Below, in pieces: positions 18,729-28,535 of a stretch of DNA of 61,988 nt (position 1 is the first letter of the stretch; each line of letters starts with the position of its first letter). Below the pieces are notes generated by a model. The model was not told the origin of the DNA and ran no database searches. It was given only the letters and a program-made list of their open reading frames with translations. The stretch comes from Actinomycetota bacterium (GTDB lineage Bacteria; Actinomycetota; CADDZG01; WHSQ01), in NCBI GenBank assembly GCA_009380005.1, contig WHSQ01000004.1, positions 334 to 62,321 of the forward strand, given 5' to 3'. The position numbers were made by a program, and so were the translations under genes.

Positions 18729-21557
18729 TCACCATTCGACGAGCTTCCAGATCTCGGGTTCCATCGTTCCTTCTCCCACGGTGGTGAATAATGCTGCGGC
18801 TTCCTTGAGGTGAACTATCGCCTCATCCGGCCGGCCGGTCGCGTGCAAGAGGTCCGCCACGTTGCTATGCAGAGCGGCCTCGCGGTGCCGATCCCCCTGC
18901 TGCGAGCACAGTTCCAACGCCGCCCGCGCGTGGACGAGCGCCTGCTCCGGCCCACCTCCTAGTCGGTAGGCCGAGGCGAGATTATTGAGGGCCGCTATCC
19001 GAGCACTCGGATCCTCGAGCTCTTCGGATGCGACCAAGCTCTGTTCCAGATGGCCGACGGCGGCGTCGACGTTCCCGTCGGCGAGCTCGATCACGCCGAG
19101 CGTGTTCTGAGCGCGGGCCAGCGCCTGAAGATCGGCGGCTTCATCAGCCAGTCGTGATCCCTCCTCCGCAAAGCGGCGGGCTGCCCTCACGTCTCCGCGA
19201 CGGCGGGCGGTGAGACTCCGGTCGGCGGCGATACGAGACCGGAGCGAACGGTCGTCCGCGTCGGCGGCCGCCAGGGCCGAGGCATGATGCATCTCGGCCA
19301 GGTCCCAGCGCCCCGCCCGCTGATGGACCTCAGCGATCTTGACCTCGAGTCCGGCCAGCTCTGACGCGACGGTAGAAGCGGCGGCCCGTTCGTAGCTCAT
19401 GAGGGCCGACGCGTAGTCTCCCAGGAGGGTCTGCACATCCCCGATGGCTTCGTGCAGTTGGGTCGCCAGGTCGGTGTCCAGCGCCAGCGCGGCCTCGTAG
19501 TGACGCAGGGCATCCTCGTTCGCGAACAGCGATCGCGCGTGCTCCCCCGCTTCCCGGAAGGCGATGGCTGCCTCCCCGCCCGCACCTGCGCTTCGCAGGT
19601 GCAGCGCGAGGGCGGCGTGGAGGGGACTCGGATCGGGGCGTCGCATCTTCGACCGCAGAGCCTCGGCCGCCCGGCGATGGAGCGATCTTCTGCGTGCCGG
19701 ACCGCAATCTTCGTAGACGAGCTCTCGCATCTTGTCGTGGCCGAAGGCGTAGCCGTCATCGCTGCCGCTCGCCTCACGCAACAGCCCGATGGCGATCAGG
19801 TTCTCGATCGCAGCGACGGTCTCTTCGTCCGTTCTGCCACTCGCATCGCGTAGGAGATCGGCGTCGAACGGTCCACCCAGGACCGCCGCAGCGCTCAGCA
19901 CTTGACGACCGATCTCGCTGGTGCGCGCCAGCCGGGTCGTCAGCAGATCCCGAGCACCGCTGAGGATCGCCTCGGGACCCGCGGAAGGATCGAGGTACTC
20001 GACGATGAAGAACGGTAAGCCCTCCGTCTCTTCGAAGAGCCGGAAGGACAGTTCGGGGTCATCGATCCCCCCGGCGGAGGCCAGTCGGCGCACGGCTTCG
20101 GCATCGAGTCGCTCGAGCCTGATCTCGTCCCCGAGCCCATCCCGTCGAAGATCGGCCACGAGGGATGGGAGGCGATGGCCGGGACCGACCTCTTCACTCC
20201 GCCACGCGATCAGGAGCAGGAATCGCCGTTGGTCCAGGCGCCGCGCCAGGAACGAGATCAGGTCCAGGGATGCCTCGTCCGCCCACTGCAGATCGTCGAG
20301 CACCAGCGCGCCCGGCTCATCGTGCTCCAGGCCAGTAGCCACGACGCTGGTGATCGCGTCGAAGAAAGCAGCGCGTGCCCCAGGTTGGTCCAGTCCCGGC
20401 ACCGGGGGATCGCCATCCATCTGCGCGTCGGGCACGAGCCTGGCGATCTCCGAACGCAAACGCGGCTCGAGAGCGGCGCCGTCTATTGCTCTCAGGGCCG
20501 AACGTAGGGCATCCGCAACGACCGCATACGCCAGTCCCGACTCTCCCGCGTGCCCCGTCACCTCGATCGAGACGGCACCGGCCGGCATGGCTCGGACGAC
20601 CTCGGAGAGCAGACGCGATTTGCCCACTCCGGCCTCTCCCTCTACCGCCACCATCCGCCCGTTCGTGTCGGCCGCCGCGTACGCCGCTCGCGCCGTCGCC
20701 AGCGCGGCGTCCCTCCCGACCATGGGAAGCAGGCCGATACCGGTCTTCATCCGGACGACGGGGGTCGGTGCGGGGGCCACGCCGTCGACCTGAGGTTCGC
20801 CGGCCGCGATGGATTCGTAGAGGGAAGTGGTTTCGGAGAGAGGAGCGACGCCCAACTCCTCATCGAGGATCCGCACGCACTCCCGGTACTGCTTCACGGC
20901 AGCCGCTCGATCCCCCGCCCTACCGAACGCCAGCATCAGGAATCGGTGGGCGGGCTCGTGCAGCGCGTCCATCGCCACCCAGCGGCGCGCATGCGTGATC
21001 GCCTCGGCGATGCGGCCTTCATCGAGTAACCGGTGCGCCAGAAGGTCCAACGCCCCCGCCAGCTGTCGTCGAAGGCTCTCCGCCTCGAAGAACTGCCAGT
21101 CATCGAAGGGCTCCGAATCCCGGAGCGCGAAACCGGAGAGGAAATCGCCGCGGTACAGCTCGACGGCGCGCCGCAGCCGCCCCGTGCACTCGGTGCAAGG
21201 CGCCGCTCCGTGGTCGTGAGCCTCCACCGCCCGGAGCTGGGAGCGGAACGTCATCACGTCGGCGTCCATATCGTCCGGATCGAGGCGGACCGAGCTGCGA
21301 TCGATCTCCAGCCGGCCCTCGCCGAGCCCCTTGCGCAGGGTGGACAGCGTGCGGCGCAGCGCGGCCCGAGCCCGAGCATCCTCGTACTCGGGCCACAGCA
21401 GAGTGCCGAGTGAGTCGCGCCGATGGGCCCTCTCGGTCCCGACCAGGAAGGCGAGCAAGGCCACCGCCTTGCGGGTGTCGAACCCGACATCCCGTCCGTC
21501 GAGGCGTATCTCGGGCGCCCCGAGGAATCTGATCGTCAGTCGACTCGGTCCGCCCAT
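18729..21557 (-). CDS. SARP/AfsR-type regulator: winged helix-BTAD-AAA-TPR
   Basis: A large transcriptional activator of about 942 residues. The N-terminal OmpR-like winged helix (LTIRFLGAPEIRLDGRDV...) and the bacterial transcriptional activator domain (about 100-250, ending RECVRILDEELGVAPLSET) are followed by a STAND/AAA-type ATPase with Walker A VEGEAGVGKSRLL and Walker B GALVLDDLQWADEASLDLI. The second half is made of TPR-like repeats. The frame is open to 21758, but the first 67 codons look non-coding and the winged helix begins at the ATG at 21557. It ends eight bases before the ABC ATPase start on the same strand, so it may control or be co-expressed with the exporter. The ligand is unknown. 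Confidence 0.93.
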   Translation of the reverse strand: MGGPSRLTIRFLGAPEIRLDGRDVGFDTRKAVALLAFLVGTERAHRRDSLGTLLWPEYEDARARAALRRTLSTLRKGLGEGRLEIDRSSVRLDPDDMDADVMTFRSQLRAVEAHDHGAAPCTECTGRLRRAVELYRGDFLSGFALRDSEPFDDWQFFEAESLRRQLAGALDLLAHRLLDEGRIAEAITHARRWVAMDALHEPAHRFLMLAFGRAGDRAAAVKQYRECVRILDEELGVAPLSETTSLYESIAAGEPQVDGVAPAPTPVVRMKTGIGLLPMVGRDAALATARAAYAAADTNGRMVAVEGEAGVGKSRLLSEVVRAMPAGAVSIEVTGHAGESGLAYAVVADALRSALRAIDGAALEPRLRSEIARLVPDAQMDGDPPVPGLDQPGARAAFFDAITSVVATGLEHDEPGALVLDDLQWADEASLDLISFLARRLDQRRFLLLIAWRSEEVGPGHRLPSLVADLRRDGLGDEIRLERLDAEAVRRLASAGGIDDPELSFRLFEETEGLPFFIVEYLDPSAGPEAILSGARDLLTTRLARTSEIGRQVLSAAAVLGGPFDADLLRDASGRTDEETVAAIENLIAIGLLREASGSDDGYAFGHDKMRELVYEDCGPARRRSLHRRAAEALRSKMRRPDPSPLHAALALHLRSAGAGGEAAIAFREAGEHARSLFANEDALRHYEAALALDTDLATQLHEAIGDVQTLLGDYASALMSYERAAASTVASELAGLEVKIAEVHQRAGRWDLAEMHHASALAAADADDRSLRSRIAADRSLTARRRGDVRAARRFAEEGSRLADEAADLQALARAQNTLGVIELADGNVDAAVGHLEQSLVASEELEDPSARIAALNNLASAYRLGGGPEQALVHARAALELCSQQGDRHREAALHSNVADLLHATGRPDEAIVHLKEAAALFTTVGEGTMEPEIWKLVEW

Positions 21558-21842
21558 GGCCAACTCGTACCTCAGGCCGCTAGATAACGCAACGGGTTCG
21601 GCCCTCGAAGCGCGGCCCGTAACGGTTCCCAGACGCCGCAGCCCCATCCTGGAGGGTGGCGCGTGGACTTTTCGCGGCCGATGTACCTGGACGGGCCCCC
21701 GGGCTCCGGGGACTATCGGCTCCATGAGGGGACTGATGATCAAACGGAAGGCAGCCATGATCGCCTGGTCGAGCTTCGGCCTGGCGGCCGGGTTGGCCGT
21801 GACACGTCTTTCCGTATGGCTGCCCGCGGGAGGCTCTCACCC

Positions 21843-23018
21843 ATGAGGCGACCCCTGCTTGGTGTCCTCTTCCTGCTCCTTGCGGCCACGGGCTTCGGAC
21901 TGGGATCGATCTGGCTCGGGTTGGACCGACCTCCGGGCGTCGCCGGGCTCGTGGACTACGGCTACTCCGATCTCATCTTCGCCGTCGCCCAGACGGCCTT
22001 CGTCCTCCTGGGACTCATGCTGGTGATGCGCTCACCACGGCCGGCCGTCGGATGGTGGATGGTAACCGTCGGCTTCATACCCGTGCTCGCGAGCTTCTTC
22101 TACGAGTGGGCGGCGCGAGATGTCACCACGGCGGACTCCCTGCCGGGGGCCGCGGAGGCAGCCGTCCTCGGAACGATCCTGGCGGCTTTGGTCCCGGGGG
22201 CGCTGGCCAATCTCCTCGCGCGATTCCCGGACGGACGCCTTCCCGGCCCCCGCTGGCGGCTGATCCCCATTGCTACAGTCGCGGCGGTTGTGGCCCTCTG
22301 TTGGGCCGGATCCGTCGCCTGGCTCGACCGAACACCTGACTTCATCCTGGAAACGGCGACGGTGCCTGCCTCCGCTGATGCTCCTTTCTTCGTGGGCTTC
22401 ACTCTCATGCTGGGAGCCGCCGCCGCCGGAGTAGTCTCGTTATTCGTTCGCTACCGCCGGGCAAACCGCCTGGAGCGACAGCAGCTCAAATGGCTCGCCG
22501 TGGCGGCTCTCCTTGCCATCACGCTGAACGTCCCGTCCATCATCTTTCCGTTCAACCAGCCCTTACAGCTCTTGTCCGGTGCAGGAGTGCTTCTCATCCC
22601 GTTCGCCATCACCCTGGCCGTTCTGCGGTACCGGCTCTACGACATAGACCTCGTCGTAAACCGAACGATCGTCTATCTGCTCCTGACCGTCCTGCTCGCA
22701 GTCGTGTACCTCGGGGGCGTGACGCTACTGCAGGGGCTCATCGGGTTCGGTGGAGACAGCGACCTCGCCGTCGCCGCATCTACCCTGGCGGTGGCCGGTC
22801 TCTTCCAGCCTGCACGGCGTCGCATCCAGAACTTCATCGACCACTACTTCTATCGCCGCAAGTACGACGCGCAGCGAACGATTGACACATTCTCCTCGAA
22901 GCTGCGGGAAGAGATCCAACTTGACGCGTTGAACGACGAGTTGATCGATGTCGTGCAACGGACGATGCATCCGGCGCACGTCAGCCTCTGGGTGATTACC
23001 ACGGACCACGACCGATGA
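21843..23018 (+). CDS. membrane sensor protein, paralog 1, without output domain
   Basis: A 391-residue protein with eight to ten helices in residues 1-335, then LRYRLYDIDLVVNRTIVYLL, FQPARRRIQNFIDHYFYRRKYD and a C-terminal tail KLREEIQLDALNDELIDVV...MHPAHVSLWV. I know this arrangement as the membrane input part of actinobacterial and chloroflexal histidine kinases and SpoIIE phosphatases, where GAF and catalytic domains follow on the same chain. Here the chain stops after the tail. The ATG at 21843 has GGAGG nine bases upstream; the open frame reaches back to 21663 but that part has no membrane-protein character. It is coupled to paralog 2 by an ATGA overlap. Confidence 0.88.
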   Translation: MRRPLLGVLFLLLAATGFGLGSIWLGLDRPPGVAGLVDYGYSDLIFAVAQTAFVLLGLMLVMRSPRPAVGWWMVTVGFIPVLASFFYEWAARDVTTADSLPGAAEAAVLGTILAALVPGALANLLARFPDGRLPGPRWRLIPIATVAAVVALCWAGSVAWLDRTPDFILETATVPASADAPFFVGFTLMLGAAAAGVVSLFVRYRRANRLERQQLKWLAVAALLAITLNVPSIIFPFNQPLQLLSGAGVLLIPFAITLAVLRYRLYDIDLVVNRTIVYLLLTVLLAVVYLGGVTLLQGLIGFGGDSDLAVAASTLAVAGLFQPARRRIQNFIDHYFYRRKYDAQRTIDTFSSKLREEIQLDALNDELIDVVQRTMHPAHVSLWVITTDHDR

Positions 23019-24241
23019 CGGGATCGACCTCCACGCCCACACCGATGCGTCGACATGGAGCTCGGAGATGGCTCCCGTGGATCCCGTTCGGTTTCACCAT
23101 CGCCCTCCTCGCGGGCACCGTCGTGCTCCTGTCCCTTTATCGTGCCTCTGGGGCGGTGGATCCGGATGGATCGATGATCACGGTCCTCCTGCTGACCCTC
23201 GTCGTCTTTGCTTTCGCGGGCGTCGGCGCCCTCACCTCGTCCAGGTATCCGGCGAACCGGATCGGCTGGCTCTGCGCGGGGATCGCGCTGGCTTGGGCGA
23301 CCGCCGGGTTCGGGCTCGGCTACATCAACTACTCGCTGAATGTCAACGCCTTGCCGGGCGCGCGCTTCATCGTGCTGACACAAGCACTATGGAACGTGGG
23401 GTTCGTCGCCCCCGCGACGCTTCTGCCGCTTCGGTTCCCCACGGGGAAGACCATGGGGGGCCGGTGGAAGTGGATCGAGCGTTCGACGTTGGGATGGTTG
23501 GCCATCTTGTTCGTGTCTGCCGGCGTCGCGCCCGAGACCGTATACCGCCCGCTGGGTCGAGGCTTCGAGATCCAAAGCCTGAGACCGGCGATGACCACGG
23601 TGGTCAACATCGCTTACCTGGCTCTGTTCCTCCTCGCAGTCTTCGCACTCGCCTCCGTGATCATCCGCTTCCGGCGCGCCGACTGGCGAGAGCGGCAACA
23701 GCTCAAGTGGTTGATATACGCCGTCGCCCTACTTGTGATCCTCATGGTCATCAGTTCATTCGTAGAACTGGCAGGAGTGACGGAAGTCGCAAACTTGGTG
23801 GCCGTCGTCGGCTTCGGCGCCGTCCCCATCGCGATCGGGATGGCCATCCTGCGGCACGGCCTGTACGACATCGACTTCGTCATCAACAGGACCCTCGTCT
23901 ACATGCTCCTGTCGACGCTGATCGGAGTCGTGTACTTCGGAGGCGTCGCCGTCCTACAGGGTCTGATCGGTCTCGGTGGCGACAGCGAGCTCGCGGTCGC
24001 CGCGTCCACCCTGGTAGTGGCCGGTCTGTTCCAGCCCGCACGAAGACGTATACAGGACTTCATCGACCATTACTTCTACCGGCGAAGATACGACGCACAA
24101 CGGACCATCGATGCGTTCACCTCGCGCCTCCGTGACGAGATCGACCTGTCTGCGTTGAATGAAGAGCTCGTCCTCGTAGTTGGTCAGACGATGCAGCCGA
24201 AACACGTGTCGGTCTGGTTGATCGGGGAAGACGGCACGTGA
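23015..24241 (+). CDS. membrane sensor protein, paralog 2, without output domain
   Basis: A 408-residue tandem paralog of the preceding gene. It has about eight to ten helices, then LRHGLYDIDFVINRTLVYMLL, LQGLIGLGGDSELAVAASTL, FQPARRRIQDFIDHYFYRRR and the tail RLRDEIDLSALNEELVLVVG...MQPKHVSVWL. The two copies are most alike from the YDID motif to the end and diverge in the N-terminal helices, which suggests duplication followed by change of the sensing part. It has no kinase or phosphatase domain. The start overlaps paralog 1 (ATGA) and its stop overlaps the next small gene (GTGA), so these genes are translationally coupled. It probably passes a membrane signal to the PP2C-HATPase protein downstream. 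Confidence 0.88.
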   Translation: MTGSTSTPTPMRRHGARRWLPWIPFGFTIALLAGTVVLLSLYRASGAVDPDGSMITVLLLTLVVFAFAGVGALTSSRYPANRIGWLCAGIALAWATAGFGLGYINYSLNVNALPGARFIVLTQALWNVGFVAPATLLPLRFPTGKTMGGRWKWIERSTLGWLAILFVSAGVAPETVYRPLGRGFEIQSLRPAMTTVVNIAYLALFLLAVFALASVIIRFRRADWRERQQLKWLIYAVALLVILMVISSFVELAGVTEVANLVAVVGFGAVPIAIGMAILRHGLYDIDFVINRTLVYMLLSTLIGVVYFGGVAVLQGLIGLGGDSELAVAASTLVVAGLFQPARRRIQDFIDHYFYRRRYDAQRTIDAFTSRLRDEIDLSALNEELVLVVGQTMQPKHVSVWLIGEDGT

Positions 24242-24498
24242 ACGCTACGATCGTGACCGGCGGGAAACCCCACCACGTCTCGCGACGGATGGCCGACCCA
24301 GGCCGAGCCGCGCCCACCCCGGAGATGATGAGGGATCGGATCGAGCTCGATTCGCTTAGCGGCGACCTGATCCGGGTCGTGATCCAAACCCTGCAGCCGG
24401 CCCACGCATCCCTCTGGCTGAAGAACCCCTCGAAAGAGGAGGAAAACCACGCGATGCCTGATGACGGCAGGAAGACTTTGAGCCAGTCTGTTTCGTAA
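24238..24498 (+). CDS. orphan C-terminal tail of the membrane sensor family
   Basis: An 86-residue product that carries only the soluble tail of the two preceding proteins: MRDRIELDSLSGDLIRVV plus IQTLQPAHASLWL aligns with LREEIQLDALNDELIDVV...HPAHVSLWV and LRDEIDLSALNEELVLVV...PKHVSVWL. There is no membrane part. GTG at 24238 shares a GTGA with the upstream stop, so translation by coupling is likely. It may be a remnant of a third copy or a free linker domain that docks to the truncated GAF domain of the next gene. No frameshift joins it to either neighbour. Confidence 0.65.
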   Translation: MNATIVTGGKPHHVSRRMADPGRAAPTPEMMRDRIELDSLSGDLIRVVIQTLQPAHASLWLKNPSKEEENHAMPDDGRKTLSQSVS

Positions 24499-24532
24499 CG
24501 ATTCCCAGACACTAGGGAGATAGAAGGTAGAT

Positions 24533-26161
24533 ATGGCATCAGTAGCCCAAAGGGCCCTCAATCGGTTCCGGCGCCGCAAGGCGGGCGGAGCCGAGGCCGC
24601 GACCGGCAGCGGCATCCAGGTTGCCCCCGTAGAGATAGCCCCCAACGATCCCCTCGTGGCCTACTTCCAGACCACGTCGGGGGCCGTCGACGTCGACAAC
24701 CTGGACTTCGACTCGCCGGCCGCGGAGCAGTTGAAGAGGAGCGGCGTCAAGCTGGTCGTGCCCCTCGTTAGCCAGGGAGAGCTGATCGGGCTCCTGAACC
24801 TTGGCCCGCGGCGCAGCGAACGCGAGTACTCCGGTGATGACCGAAAGCTGCTCGATACGCTCGCCGCGCACGCGGCTCCCGCCCTCCGGGTGGCCCAACT
24901 CGTCAAGCAACAGGAGGCCGAGGTCCGGACCCGTGAACGGCTCGAACAGGAGCTCCGGGTCGCCCAGCTGATCCAGCAACAGTTCCTTCCCAAGGAGCTG
25001 CCGGATCTCCCGGGCTGGCAGGTCGCCGCCTTCTACCAGCCGGCCCGACAGGTCGGCGGTGACTTCTACGACTTCATCGATCTGCCCGACGGCAAGGTGG
25101 GCATCGTCGTTGGCGACGTGACGGACAAGGGCGTCCCGGCGGCGCTCGTGATGGCGACGACTCACAGCATCTTGCGCGGCGAGGCTCCGAGGTTGAACTC
25201 CCCCGGCCAGCTCCTCGAACGAGCCAATAACCGCCTGTTCCCCGACATCCCTTCACACATGTTCGTGACCTGCCTCTACGGCGTGCTGGACCCGCAGACG
25301 GGACGGTTCGTCTACGCGAACGCCGGGCACAACCTGCCGTACGTCCGCAGCGGGAACGAGACGCTCGAGTACCGCGCCACGGGGATGCCACTGGGCCTGA
25401 TGGCCGGCATGAAGTACGAGGAGAAGGAAGCCATCATCGAGCCCGGGCAGGCGATCCTGTTCCACAGCGACGGTCTCGCCGAGGCACACAATCCCCAGCG
25501 AGAGATGTTCGGCTTCGGGCGTCTCAAAGAGGAGATGGCGGGACGACCCGGTGGGAACGCGCTCATCGACCACTTGCTCGATCGGTTGAGGCACCACACG
25601 GGCCACGGTTGGGAGCAGGAAGACGACATCACACTCGTCACGCTCGAGCGCGCCGGAGGCGAAGGGTTGTTCACTTCGGCCCCCGCGAGCATCCCCGGAC
25701 CGCGCAATCTCCCCGTCGACGGTGAGAACGAGCTGGCCAGCTTCTCGGTCGGCAGCTCTCCCGGCAACGAGCGCGAGGCGATGCGCCGGGTCGAGGAAGC
25801 AGTGGCAGATCTGACCATGCCTCCAGCTCAGCTCGAGCGACTGAAGACGGCCGTATCGGAGGCGACGATGAACGCGATCGAACATGGCAACAAGAACCAA
25901 GCGGAGGTCCCCGTGGACATCCGCGTCACATCCAACGGCGATGCAGTGACCGTCTACATCACCGATCAGGGTGGCGATCAGCCGACCTTCGAGACCCCGA
26001 CGCCGGATATCGAGGCCAAGCTCGCCGGCACGCAGACGCCGCGCGGCTGGGGCCTCTTCCTCATCAAGAACATGGTCGACGAGATGGACGTGATCACCGA
26101 CGAGCACCATCACACGCTGAAGCTGGTTCTCCGTCGGGAAGGAGAGGACCACGATGCCTGA
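24533..26161 (+). CDS. GAF-PP2C(SpoIIE)-HATPase partner-switch regulator
   Basis: A 542-residue cytoplasmic protein that combines opposing activities. Residues about 35-120 are the second half of a GAF domain (VKLVVPLVSQGELIGLLNLG), followed by a coiled coil. Residues about 150-365 are a SpoIIE/RsbU phosphatase with metal-binding blocks QVGGDFYDFIDLPDG, GDVTDKGVPAALVMA and HSDGLAEAHN. Residues about 400-535 are an RsbW-like kinase domain with N-box EATMNAIEHGNKN, ITDQGG and RGWGLFLIKNMVDEMD. The phosphatase would dephosphorylate, and the kinase phosphorylate, the two STAS proteins encoded next. An AGAAGG ribosome site precedes the ATG. The missing start of the GAF domain fits with the upstream tail being supplied as a separate protein. 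Confidence 0.94.
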   Translation: MASVAQRALNRFRRRKAGGAEAATGSGIQVAPVEIAPNDPLVAYFQTTSGAVDVDNLDFDSPAAEQLKRSGVKLVVPLVSQGELIGLLNLGPRRSEREYSGDDRKLLDTLAAHAAPALRVAQLVKQQEAEVRTRERLEQELRVAQLIQQQFLPKELPDLPGWQVAAFYQPARQVGGDFYDFIDLPDGKVGIVVGDVTDKGVPAALVMATTHSILRGEAPRLNSPGQLLERANNRLFPDIPSHMFVTCLYGVLDPQTGRFVYANAGHNLPYVRSGNETLEYRATGMPLGLMAGMKYEEKEAIIEPGQAILFHSDGLAEAHNPQREMFGFGRLKEEMAGRPGGNALIDHLLDRLRHHTGHGWEQEDDITLVTLERAGGEGLFTSAPASIPGPRNLPVDGENELASFSVGSSPGNEREAMRRVEEAVADLTMPPAQLERLKTAVSEATMNAIEHGNKNQAEVPVDIRVTSNGDAVTVYITDQGGDQPTFETPTPDIEAKLAGTQTPRGWGLFLIKNMVDEMDVITDEHHHTLKLVLRREGEDHDA

Positions 26162-26513
26162 ACAAAGGTTCGACGCCCAGGTGCGACAGGAAGGTTCGGT
26201 TGCGACGATGGACCTGAGCGGCGAGATCAACCGCGGGGCCGACGATCGCATGACGAGTGCGTACGACGATGTAGCCAAGACCGGTGCGGCGACGATCCTG
26301 TTGAACTTCACGAGGGTCGGCTACATAAACAGCACCGGGATAGCGGTCATCGTTGCGATGCTCGGCCGCGCCCGGAACGACGGTAGGCAGGTAAGCGCCT
26401 ACGGTCTCACCGATCACTACAAGCACCTATTCGACATCACCCGTCTATCGGATTTCATGAACATCTACGACGATGAATCCACTGCTCTAGCCGGCGTTGG
26501 CGCCGGTGCCTGA
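26154..26513 (+). CDS. STAS anti-anti-sigma factor 1
   Basis: A 119-residue STAS protein of the SpoIIAA/RsbV type. The phosphorylation site is S60 in GYINSTGIAVIV, preceded by the usual ILLNFTRV strand. Its gene overlaps the end of the PP2C-HATPase gene by eight bases, so the kinase and phosphatase that control it are made in the same ribosome run. When dephosphorylated, such proteins normally bind the HATPase kinase and release its target. No sigma factor is encoded nearby. Confidence 0.95.
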   Translation: MPEQRFDAQVRQEGSVATMDLSGEINRGADDRMTSAYDDVAKTGAATILLNFTRVGYINSTGIAVIVAMLGRARNDGRQVSAYGLTDHYKHLFDITRLSDFMNIYDDESTALAGVGAGA

Positions 26514-26526
26514 ATCGGGAGGGGAT

Positions 26527-26883
26527 ATGACTGAGGCGACGACAGCTACCAGCGTCCGCAGGCTCAACGATCAGATCTCGGTGATCGACATCAAGGGAGA
26601 GATCACCGCAGCCTCGGAGTCCACCCTGATGGACGCCTTCAACGAGGCTTCCGGCGACGCAACCAAGGCGGTGATCCTCAACTTCGGGGGCCTCGACTAC
26701 ATGAACAGTTCAGGCATAGGTCTCCTGGTCACGCTGCTCGTGCGAGCCCAACGACAGCACCAAGAACTACTGGCCTACGGCCTGAACGAGCATTACCGAC
26801 AGATCTTCGAGCTGACCCGCCTCGACGAGGCCATCGGTATCCACGACACCGAGGACAGCGCTACCGCAGCCGCCGGCAGATAA
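26527..26883 (+). CDS. STAS anti-anti-sigma factor 2
   Basis: A second STAS protein, 118 residues, with phosphosite S61/S62 in DYMNSSGIGLLVTLLV and the same YGLNEHYRQIFELTRLDEAI C-terminal helix region as its neighbour (YGLTDHYKHLFDITRLSDFM), so the two arose by duplication. The ATG at 26527 has a strong GGGAGGGG site two bases upstream of the ideal spacing; the in-frame extension to 26497 overlaps STAS 1 and looks spurious. Two antagonists for one HATPase domain would let two inputs or two outputs share one switch. Confidence 0.95.
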   Translation: MTEATTATSVRRLNDQISVIDIKGEITAASESTLMDAFNEASGDATKAVILNFGGLDYMNSSGIGLLVTLLVRAQRQHQELLAYGLNEHYRQIFELTRLDEAIGIHDTEDSATAAAGR

Positions 26884-26893
26884 GGAGCCAACC

Positions 26894-27718
26894 ATGAGCG
26901 ACCAACCGACCACACCATCCCCCGCCGAAGCCACTCCCGAGCCGGAGCAGCTCGAGGCCGCGGCGGTTAGGCGCAGCGACGCGGGCAACTGGGCCAAGGT
27001 AAGTCCGACCCTCCACCTCGAGAACGTGCCCGAGGGAGCGATCAACCTCAACGTTGAGGGCCGTCGAACAGCTTCGCCGATGCAGGGCTTCGGCAAGATG
27101 TGGCAGAAGACGTACAGCGTCCGGATCCCGTCCTCGATCGCCTCGCCGACGGACGTCGTGACCCAATGGCGCGCCGCCTTCTCGAGCTTCTGGCCTCCCG
27201 GCAACTTCTTCTACTCCCCGTTCACCGACCTCTCCCCCGGTGATGTCGCGCTCTTGAATCTGAAGGCCGTTGGTCGCGTGAAGCTGTCCACGGGCATGCT
27301 CGTGATGTACGTCGATGATGAAGCCATCACGCTGATGACTCCGGTCGGTCATTTCTTCGCGGCCTTCAACACCTTCGGCGCGCACAGCGACGGAGACGAC
27401 ACCATCGTCCAGATCCAGCCACTCTTCCGTTCAGGCGACCCGATCTACGAGATGGGCATGCCGATCATGTCCCGCATGGAGGACAGGTTCTGGGCCCAGA
27501 CCCTCAGGAACGTCGCCGCGCACTTCGGGGTCGAAGACGTCGAGGTGACGCAGACGAAGGTTTGCATCGACAAGAAGCGCAACTGGGCCGCGGTGAAGAA
27601 CGTCCGTCACAACTCCCTCATCAGATCGATCCTCTATCTGGTGGCCACGCCTTTCCGCTGGATCGCCCGACCGTTCAAGAAGGATGCCGACCCGGACGCG
27701 CAGGCGCCCGACCGATAG
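26894..27718 (+). CDS. unknown cytoplasmic protein, first of a paralogous pair
   Basis: A 274-residue protein I do not recognise with confidence. After a Pro/Glu-rich start (1-35) it has blocks shared with the next gene: LPEGAIN-type turn ENVPEGAINLNVEGRR, FGKMWQKTYSVR, LSTGMLVMYVDDEA, TPVGHFFAAFNTFGA, MEDRFWAQTLRNVAAHFGVED and DKKRNWAAVKNVRHNSLIRS. The strand-and-helix order is reminiscent of DUF1990/SRPBCC proteins, which is a weak comparison. There is no signal peptide; the C-terminal stretch ILYLVATPFRWIARPFKK could be an amphipathic membrane-binding helix. It lies 11 bases after STAS 2 with AAGGAG before the ATG, so it belongs to the partner-switch operon and could be its effector. Confidence 0.8.
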   Translation: MSDQPTTPSPAEATPEPEQLEAAAVRRSDAGNWAKVSPTLHLENVPEGAINLNVEGRRTASPMQGFGKMWQKTYSVRIPSSIASPTDVVTQWRAAFSSFWPPGNFFYSPFTDLSPGDVALLNLKAVGRVKLSTGMLVMYVDDEAITLMTPVGHFFAAFNTFGAHSDGDDTIVQIQPLFRSGDPIYEMGMPIMSRMEDRFWAQTLRNVAAHFGVEDVEVTQTKVCIDKKRNWAAVKNVRHNSLIRSILYLVATPFRWIARPFKKDADPDAQAPDR

Positions 27719-27731
27719 CAAGGAGGCCGCC

Positions 27732-28535
27732 GTGTCCGTCGACAAGGAAAGCCCGTCGGGCGGCTCGACCCGCCGGGACGATGAGGCGTGGGCGAAGCCG
27801 ACGCCCGCCCTCGAAGTCACCATCCTGCCCGAGGGGGCCATCAATCGAAACGTGGCCGGCCGCCGCGTCACCGGTCCGATCCAGGGCTTCGGGCGCATGT
27901 GGCAGAAGACTTACCGCGTTCGGATGTCCGGCGTGGACATCGACCCGACGGAAGTCATCAAGACGTGGAAAGAGCACTTTCCCGAGTTCTGGCCGGAGGG
28001 CAACCGCTTCTACGGTCCCCTGACCGGCATCGCGCCGGGCGAAGTGGCCGTCCTTAACCTGTCGATGCCCGGCAGATTGAAGCTCTCCACGGGAGTGATG
28101 GTCATGTACGCCGACGACGAGTCCTTCACTTTCATGACGCCTGAAGGCCACATGTTCGCCGGTTGGATCACCTTCAGCGCGTTCAAGGAGGGACGGTCGA
28201 CGGTGGCCCAGGCCCAGGTCTTGATCCGAGCGAGTGACCCCCTCTACGAGCTGGGACTGGCCCTGGGTGGGCACGAGGTGGAGGACCGCTTCTGGCAGAC
28301 GACGCTAACGACACTGGCGGCGCGTTTCGGCGTCGAGGACCCGGCCCCCGAAACGCGCTACCTCCTCGTCGATCGCAAACGGCAGTGGCGGATGGCGAAG
28401 AACGTCTGGCACAACGCCGGGGTCCGCAGCGGTTTCTACATGATGGGGATGCCGGCGCGCTGGGCGTCCAAGAGGCTCAAGCGGAAGTCGCCGCCCTACA
28501 CGTCCGAGGGATCCTCGCAGAACTCCGACCTGTAA
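27732..28535 (+). CDS. unknown cytoplasmic protein, second of the paralogous pair
   Basis: A 267-residue paralog of the preceding protein. Shared blocks include ILPEGAINRNVAGRR, FGRMWQKTYRVR, LSTGVMVMYADDES, TPEGHMFAGWITFSA, VEDRFWQTTLTTLAARFGVED and DRKRQWRMAKNVWHNAGVRSG, with a basic C-terminal tail after FYMMGMPARWASKRLKRK. I took the GTG at 27732, which has a perfect AGGAGG five bases upstream; the in-frame extension to 27684 lies inside the previous gene. Both paralogs keep the EDRFW...FGVED core, so it is probably functional, but no enzyme motif is evident. It is followed after 35 bases by an FAD oxidoreductase gene. Confidence 0.8.
   Translation: MSVDKESPSGGSTRRDDEAWAKPTPALEVTILPEGAINRNVAGRRVTGPIQGFGRMWQKTYRVRMSGVDIDPTEVIKTWKEHFPEFWPEGNRFYGPLTGIAPGEVAVLNLSMPGRLKLSTGVMVMYADDESFTFMTPEGHMFAGWITFSAFKEGRSTVAQAQVLIRASDPLYELGLALGGHEVEDRFWQTTLTTLAARFGVEDPAPETRYLLVDRKRQWRMAKNVWHNAGVRSGFYMMGMPARWASKRLKRKSPPYTSEGSSQNSDL

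Follow-up and report, generated by a model that had tools for sequence, protein, structure and literature searches.

A SpoIIE-type phosphatase with a partial GAF domain and arrays of membrane sensors whose tails may complete it

Stressosomes and RsbT are the main known examples of how many signals converge on a single phosphatase of the partner-switching type. In the case of RsbU, RsbT orders the linker of the phosphatase into a coiled coil, which dimerises the phosphatase domains and thereby leads to activation, and GAF, PAS, and other sensors were proposed to activate PPM phosphatases likewise (PMC12143880). In the Rv1364c-like proteins of M. tuberculosis, the PPM phosphatase is fused to an anti-sigma-type kinase and has a STAS partner (PMC12143880). 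The locus described here lies in a stretch of 61,988 nucleotides from an Actinomycetota bacterium (GenBank assembly GCA_009380005.1, contig WHSQ01000004.1), hereafter the window. Like the RsbU/RsbP/RsbZ type, it combines a PPM phosphatase, an N-terminal sensory part, and a helical linker with STAS proteins encoded alongside, and it would resemble RsbU in being activated by a separate protein, as RsbT does by acting on the linker. It differs from that type in its putative activators, which are arrays of polytopic membrane proteins holding one segment of the GAF domain that belongs to the phosphatase; in the phosphatase itself, no match to the RsbU N-terminal family was found, its N-terminus being a partial GAF. 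Among the genes of the loci, none for RsbT or for a stressosome component came to notice. While Rv1364c receives its PAS input within one chain, the locus has a split GAF and separate STAS genes. A likeness to PrsK (TIGR02916) is also seen, sensor 1 matching positions 3-345 of that profile and the phosphatase N-terminus positions 404-464, but the chain is here cut within the GAF and the output is SpoIIE-HATPase; the window chains score 26.3 and 26.9 bits, compared to an equivalog cut-off of 300 bits. Fused SpoIIE relatives (loci L044, L059, and L241-L248) contain the same pieces, but in a single chain. No published split, partial, or bipartite GAF and no description of this operon were found in the literature searched, which mostly excluded subscription papers. 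We regard the system as a probable variant of partner-switching phosphatase signalling with split-GAF membrane inputs.

All genes of the array are encoded on the forward strand. Sensor 1 (21843..23018, 391 aa) displays about nine hydrophobic segments, a YDID motif, and, at its C-terminus, the first helix and first strand of a GAF domain (22881..23015; ...LDALNDELIDVVQRTMHPAHVSLWV), with the stop 7 residues past the strand. Sensor 2 (23015..24241, 408 aa) follows the same plan with another N-terminal part, its GAF helix and strand being located at 24104..24238. Both sensors, for which a simple hydropathy scan gives about nine or ten hydrophobic segments each and a Pfam scan no output domain, stop 6-7 residues past GAF helix 1-strand 1, and they share 28.6% identity N-terminal of the YDID motif vs 71.3% C-terminal of it. 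A third copy of GAF helix 1-strand 1, missed in the earlier note, is carried by a tail-only open reading frame (24238..24499, 86 aa) devoid of any membrane segment. Sensor 1 and sensor 2 are joined by an ATGA overlap, sensor 2 and the tail-only ORF by a GTGA overlap, and a gap of 33 bases separates the latter from the phosphatase gene (24533..26161, 542 aa). The ORF positions at 21843, 23015, and 24533 and the ATGA/GTGA junctions are as the earlier note had reported them. Its claim that the sensors end where a GAF-containing output part would follow is to be corrected in that the cut falls within the domain and not before it, the tails holding the first helix and strand.

The phosphatase chain had been described as starting inside the GAF and continuing through phosphatase and kinase, which is what Pfam returns: a partial GAF, SpoIIE, and HATPase_c_2. 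Its GAF part (residues 34-118, 24632..24886) covers only about positions 48-133 of the GAF profile and lacks the first helix and strand. The SpoIIE/PPM domain (residues 185-373, 25085..25651) matches PF07228 over positions 1-191 of 192 with 168.8 bits, for a cut-off of 25, and contains the motifs GGDFYDF, GDVTDKG, HSDG, and EDDITLV, which we take to be the metal-binding aspartate motifs of the SpoIIE/PPM family. The HATPase_c_2 domain (RsbW/SpoIIAB-like; residues 409-531, 25757..26125) reaches 78 bits for a cut-off of 27.4, and scores below both the RsbW and the SpoIIAB equivalog cut-offs. Two genes for anti-anti-sigma-like proteins come next, STAS1 (26154..26513), which overlaps the phosphatase stop, and STAS2 (about 26524..26883). 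They are followed by two related copies of an operon-end protein of unassigned family (26894..27718 and 27684..28535), neither of which has a Pfam match, and which are possibly the output of the system; relatives of copy 1 are located 3' of STAS2 in almost every locus whose flank is long enough. Between 21843 and 28535, no gene for a sigma factor was noticed. Where the flanking sequence suffices, the phosphatase is followed by STAS1, STAS2, and the operon-end family in almost every locus.

The reading that we favour, and consider likely, is a many-to-one input hub, in which sensor tails would complete the split GAF and switch one phosphatase. Each membrane sensor would end in the GAF first helix and strand, the remainder being held by the soluble phosphatase, and in cells, we infer, the tail would dock as the missing edge of the phosphatase GAF. 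A presumed signal would then alter the docking of the tail or dimerisation and would pass via a long helix to the PPM phosphatase. The latter would dephosphorylate the two STAS proteins encoded by the adjoining genes, its putative substrates, against the fused RsbW-like kinase. Several sensors with different inputs would in this way feed one output, and the tail-only proteins may act as soluble inputs or competitors.

Completion of the GAF by the tail is supported by several predictions. With PF01590, the trimmed phosphatase segment alone obtained 33.4 bits over profile positions 65-133, while joining it in silico to a tail gave 40.3 bits for sensor 1 (from position 2), 43.4 bits for sensor 2 (from position 1), and 39.6 bits for the tail-only ORF (from position 2), compared to 34.8 bits over positions 45-133 for a scrambled tail. 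In the window, the gain over the phosphatase alone amounts to 6-10 bits, and the whole GAF profile is then covered (to 133). The same joining raised the score from 34.5 to 41.4 bits in a Kribbella locus, and from 31.9 to 34.7 and from 32.7 to 38.3 bits in two Chloroflexota loci. These bit gains are modest (2.8-10), and the chief point is that coverage reaches the start of the profile. The TIGR02916 (PrsK) score did not rise on joining tail and phosphatase, so that the support from the joining test is that of the Pfam GAF profile only.

Structure prediction points in the same direction. In the AlphaFold2 model of the natural fusion L044 (GAF pLDDT 89.9, pTM 0.83), the first helix and strand of the GAF come from the tail, and the modelled domain matches solved GAF domains. 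For the window pair, the sensor 2 tail and the phosphatase were modelled as one chain via the in-frame intergenic stretch, with stops replaced by residues and this linker considered inert. The tail was predicted with a pLDDT of 88-95, the partial GAF with 90-98, and the linker with about 43, for a pTM of 0.63, while the phosphatase's own N-terminus was poorly ordered. Foldseek alignments running across both halves gave a TMt of 0.62-0.66 to single GAF domains (3ci6_B, 5w10_C, 3oov_A) vs about 0.31-0.42 for the phosphatase half alone; for two copies of one GAF, the values were 0.63 (5w10_C, both halves) and 0.35 (5w10_B, phosphatase half). These predictions support the placement of the tail as GAF strand 1, with the reservation that AlphaFold2 may have rebuilt the GAF from what it learned in training, because the chains were joined by a linker and the alignment combined 12 read-through pairs with 6 fused rows. 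In both models, a long helix lies C-terminal of the GAF.

A partial co-variation was also recorded with distance-based partial Mantel tests over 35 loci. Tail and GAF-half distances are correlated when SpoIIE, STAS1, and the operon-end protein are controlled (r=0.34, p=0.0005), and remain so when the sensor TM region is controlled as well (r=0.28, p=0.0035), while tail and SpoIIE-domain distances show no correlation once the GAF half is controlled (r=0.13, p=0.10). For the sensor TM region, the correlation with the GAF half is equally strong (r=0.34), the signal therefore not being unique to the tail. Taken together, the Pfam joining, the linked model with its Foldseek matches, and this partial co-variation support the contact between tail and partial GAF that the earlier note had put forward as an inference.

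These data bear on a first alternative, according to which the sensors would dock by membrane proximity and by coiled-coil or dimer contacts, the tail being a relic, still folded, of a GAF that was once part of a single chain, and not being inserted into the phosphatase GAF. In favour of this, single-chain homologs of both sensors and phosphatases exist, and the N-terminus of the phosphatase carries basic charge (a mean net value of +3.7 over the first 24 residues) and could tether the protein to the membrane. Nevertheless, a remnant should decay, whereas the tail strand is among the best-kept parts of the sensors, which stop almost directly after it, and the phosphatase lacks exactly these GAF elements, with a poorly ordered N-terminus in the model. 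That the phosphatase is anchored in the membrane by an amphipathic N-terminus was considered and rejected, the moment being not significant (11 of 58 sequences at p<0.1) and basic charge alone being general. We regard this alternative as unlikely.

The split point, the arrays, their conservation, the operon, and the promoter-like box are established at the level of the sequences. At the thresholds used, a public-genome scan and sampled searches matched 33 genomes out of 397 on the Actinomycetota side and 36 out of 400 on the Chloroflexota side, the phylum names being inferred from the titles of the records; order-level sampling around Blastococcus obtained only that one genome. Dozens of loci from Actinomycetota and Chloroflexota show the same split, with one to nine tandem sensors 5' of one phosphatase; nine are present in locus L224, and eight in genome G010, which belongs to the same family as the window genome. 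Input and output on separate chains, with duplicated inputs, as proposed from the window, are conserved across loci, and the comparison of gene order that had been suggested reveals split arrays in many independent genomes, fused homologs being present as well. The idea of two sensors sharing one output holds as regards their divergent N-terminal parts, but was too narrow in view of the arrays of up to nine tandem sensors, the unlinked sensors, and the tail-only ORFs. Over 50 loci with linked sensors, 127 of the 128 sensors stop at most 41 residues past the GAF first strand (median of 8). The sole exception is a sensor of L249 (1970-5710), in which the tail is followed by a membrane segment and then by a domain resembling nucleoside hydrolases. 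Within loci, median identity between sensors is 32.7% for the input part vs 69.6% for the tail, the tail being higher in 158 of 158 pairs; pairs from one locus are not independent, and near relatives, such as several Kribbella species, are present in the sample.

Against this background, one may ask whether a frameshift or an assembly error has broken a single-chain gene in the window, the tail-only ORF being debris. That ORF is indeed short, has no membrane segments, and has diverged from the sensor tails, to which it is about 40% identical. Its codon-position GC (0.62/0.46/0.79) is nevertheless of the coding type and like that of the adjoining genes, tail-only ORFs also recur in Rubrobacteraceae, and the split is seen in dozens of loci from two phyla, where sensors are duplicated and promoter-like boxes stand separately. 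Several in-frame stops lie between sensor 2 and the phosphatase, and in other loci the split parts are found in varying frames and at varying distances, on which grounds an assembly frameshift was rejected; we consider this explanation extremely improbable. Programmed readthrough of a single stop was rejected too: sensor and phosphatase are in frame and separated by one stop in some loci, but not in many others. Tail-only or nearly membrane-less ORFs were observed in L055 (12598-12837) as well as in L161 and L162, 5' of the phosphatase; such ORFs may be soluble inputs, competitors, or remnants. Phosphatases of the Rubrobacteraceae type are about 395 aa long (L055, L160-L164, L167, L168, and related loci). 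The only one scanned, that of L055, has no HATPase, and an opposing kinase, if any, must therefore be encoded elsewhere.

Tails are not confined to the arrays. In the window genome, tails were detected in nine places, of which seven are away from the window, and the proteins all end after the tail. The seven unlinked truncated tails are found on contigs C617, C122, C344, C600, C4, C55, and C11 of this genome, G000 (L285-L291). As a point against the hub, some phosphatase loci, such as L036, have no adjoining sensor, although in that genome sensors are located elsewhere. The unlinked position of seven of the nine places could be taken to mean that the sensors are independent, their tails binding one another or different partners, a small ligand or promoter activity regulating the phosphatase, and the neighbourhood reflecting only co-regulation, in line with the same promoter-like box on sensor and phosphatase genes. 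However, at the threshold used, only one split phosphatase was detected in the window genome, and no partial GAF of the same type was found near the seven unlinked tails, which fits many-to-one use. The co-variation of the tail with the GAF half and the existence of natural fusions also argue against independent sensors, which we consider quite improbable.

As the earlier note had expected, fused single-chain relatives exist: L044, L059, and a Chloroflexota clade (L241-L248) join the same membrane and tail region to GAF-SpoIIE, and the genomes of L044 and L059 each hold a split version too. The HATPase is absent from L044, L059, and L241 in the Pfam scan. In a tree built with a quick maximum-likelihood method, without bootstrap, split and fused forms make up one clade (SH-aLRT 100), within which seven fused sequences group together among split ones (SH-aLRT 92-93). 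For these seven sequences, the topology suggests a secondary fusion. In relatives at the class and phylum levels, a like membrane and tail region is found in single chains with HisKA_3-HATPase, GAF-HD, or GAF-GGDEF.

The phosphatase genes are preceded by a promoter-like box consisting, in this order, of CGTAACG, often doubled with a 12-bp spacing, of GACG, and of a TAnnnT hexamer most often situated at +27 (43 of 54). Exact CGTAACG occurs 5' of 64 of 71 phosphatase genes, for a background expectation of 0.026 per 400 bases, and it also precedes the first sensor at 24 of 36 loci, the window being one of them. In the window, the forward strand bears an exact CGTAACG-N7-GACG copy 5' of sensor 1 (21618..21635) and a CGTAACG...CAGACA...ATAGAA element 5' of the phosphatase (24494..24530). 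In both phyla, the box with its CGTAACG heptads stands before sensor genes as well as phosphatase genes. In SARP promoters, heptamers are directly repeated every 11 bp immediately 5' of the -10; the heptads observed here are 12 bp apart, with no pair at 11 bp, and a SARP box of that spacing was rejected. Divergent from the sensor array, a BTAD (SARP/AfsR-like)-AAA_16-TPR regulator is encoded on the reverse strand (18729..21758; Pfam BTAD 80.8 bits), its true start probably lying downstream of the called one. Since a BTAD-type regulator is located near many arrays, mostly divergent and upstream, this protein is, by position only, a candidate for the regulator that recognises CGTAACG.

With somewhat less assurance than for the input hub itself, we lean towards a broader reading in which the tail would be an interchangeable plug: tandem or scattered membrane receptors and soluble tail-only proteins would compete with one another to supply the missing part of a single phosphatase's GAF, in an expandable arrangement present in two phyla. 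If true, the gene structure would show that every receptor bears a separable edge of a domain belonging to the output protein, and this would be a case of natural domain complementation used for signalling. It would also provide a likely role for many unannotated membrane proteins of Actinomycetota and Chloroflexota.
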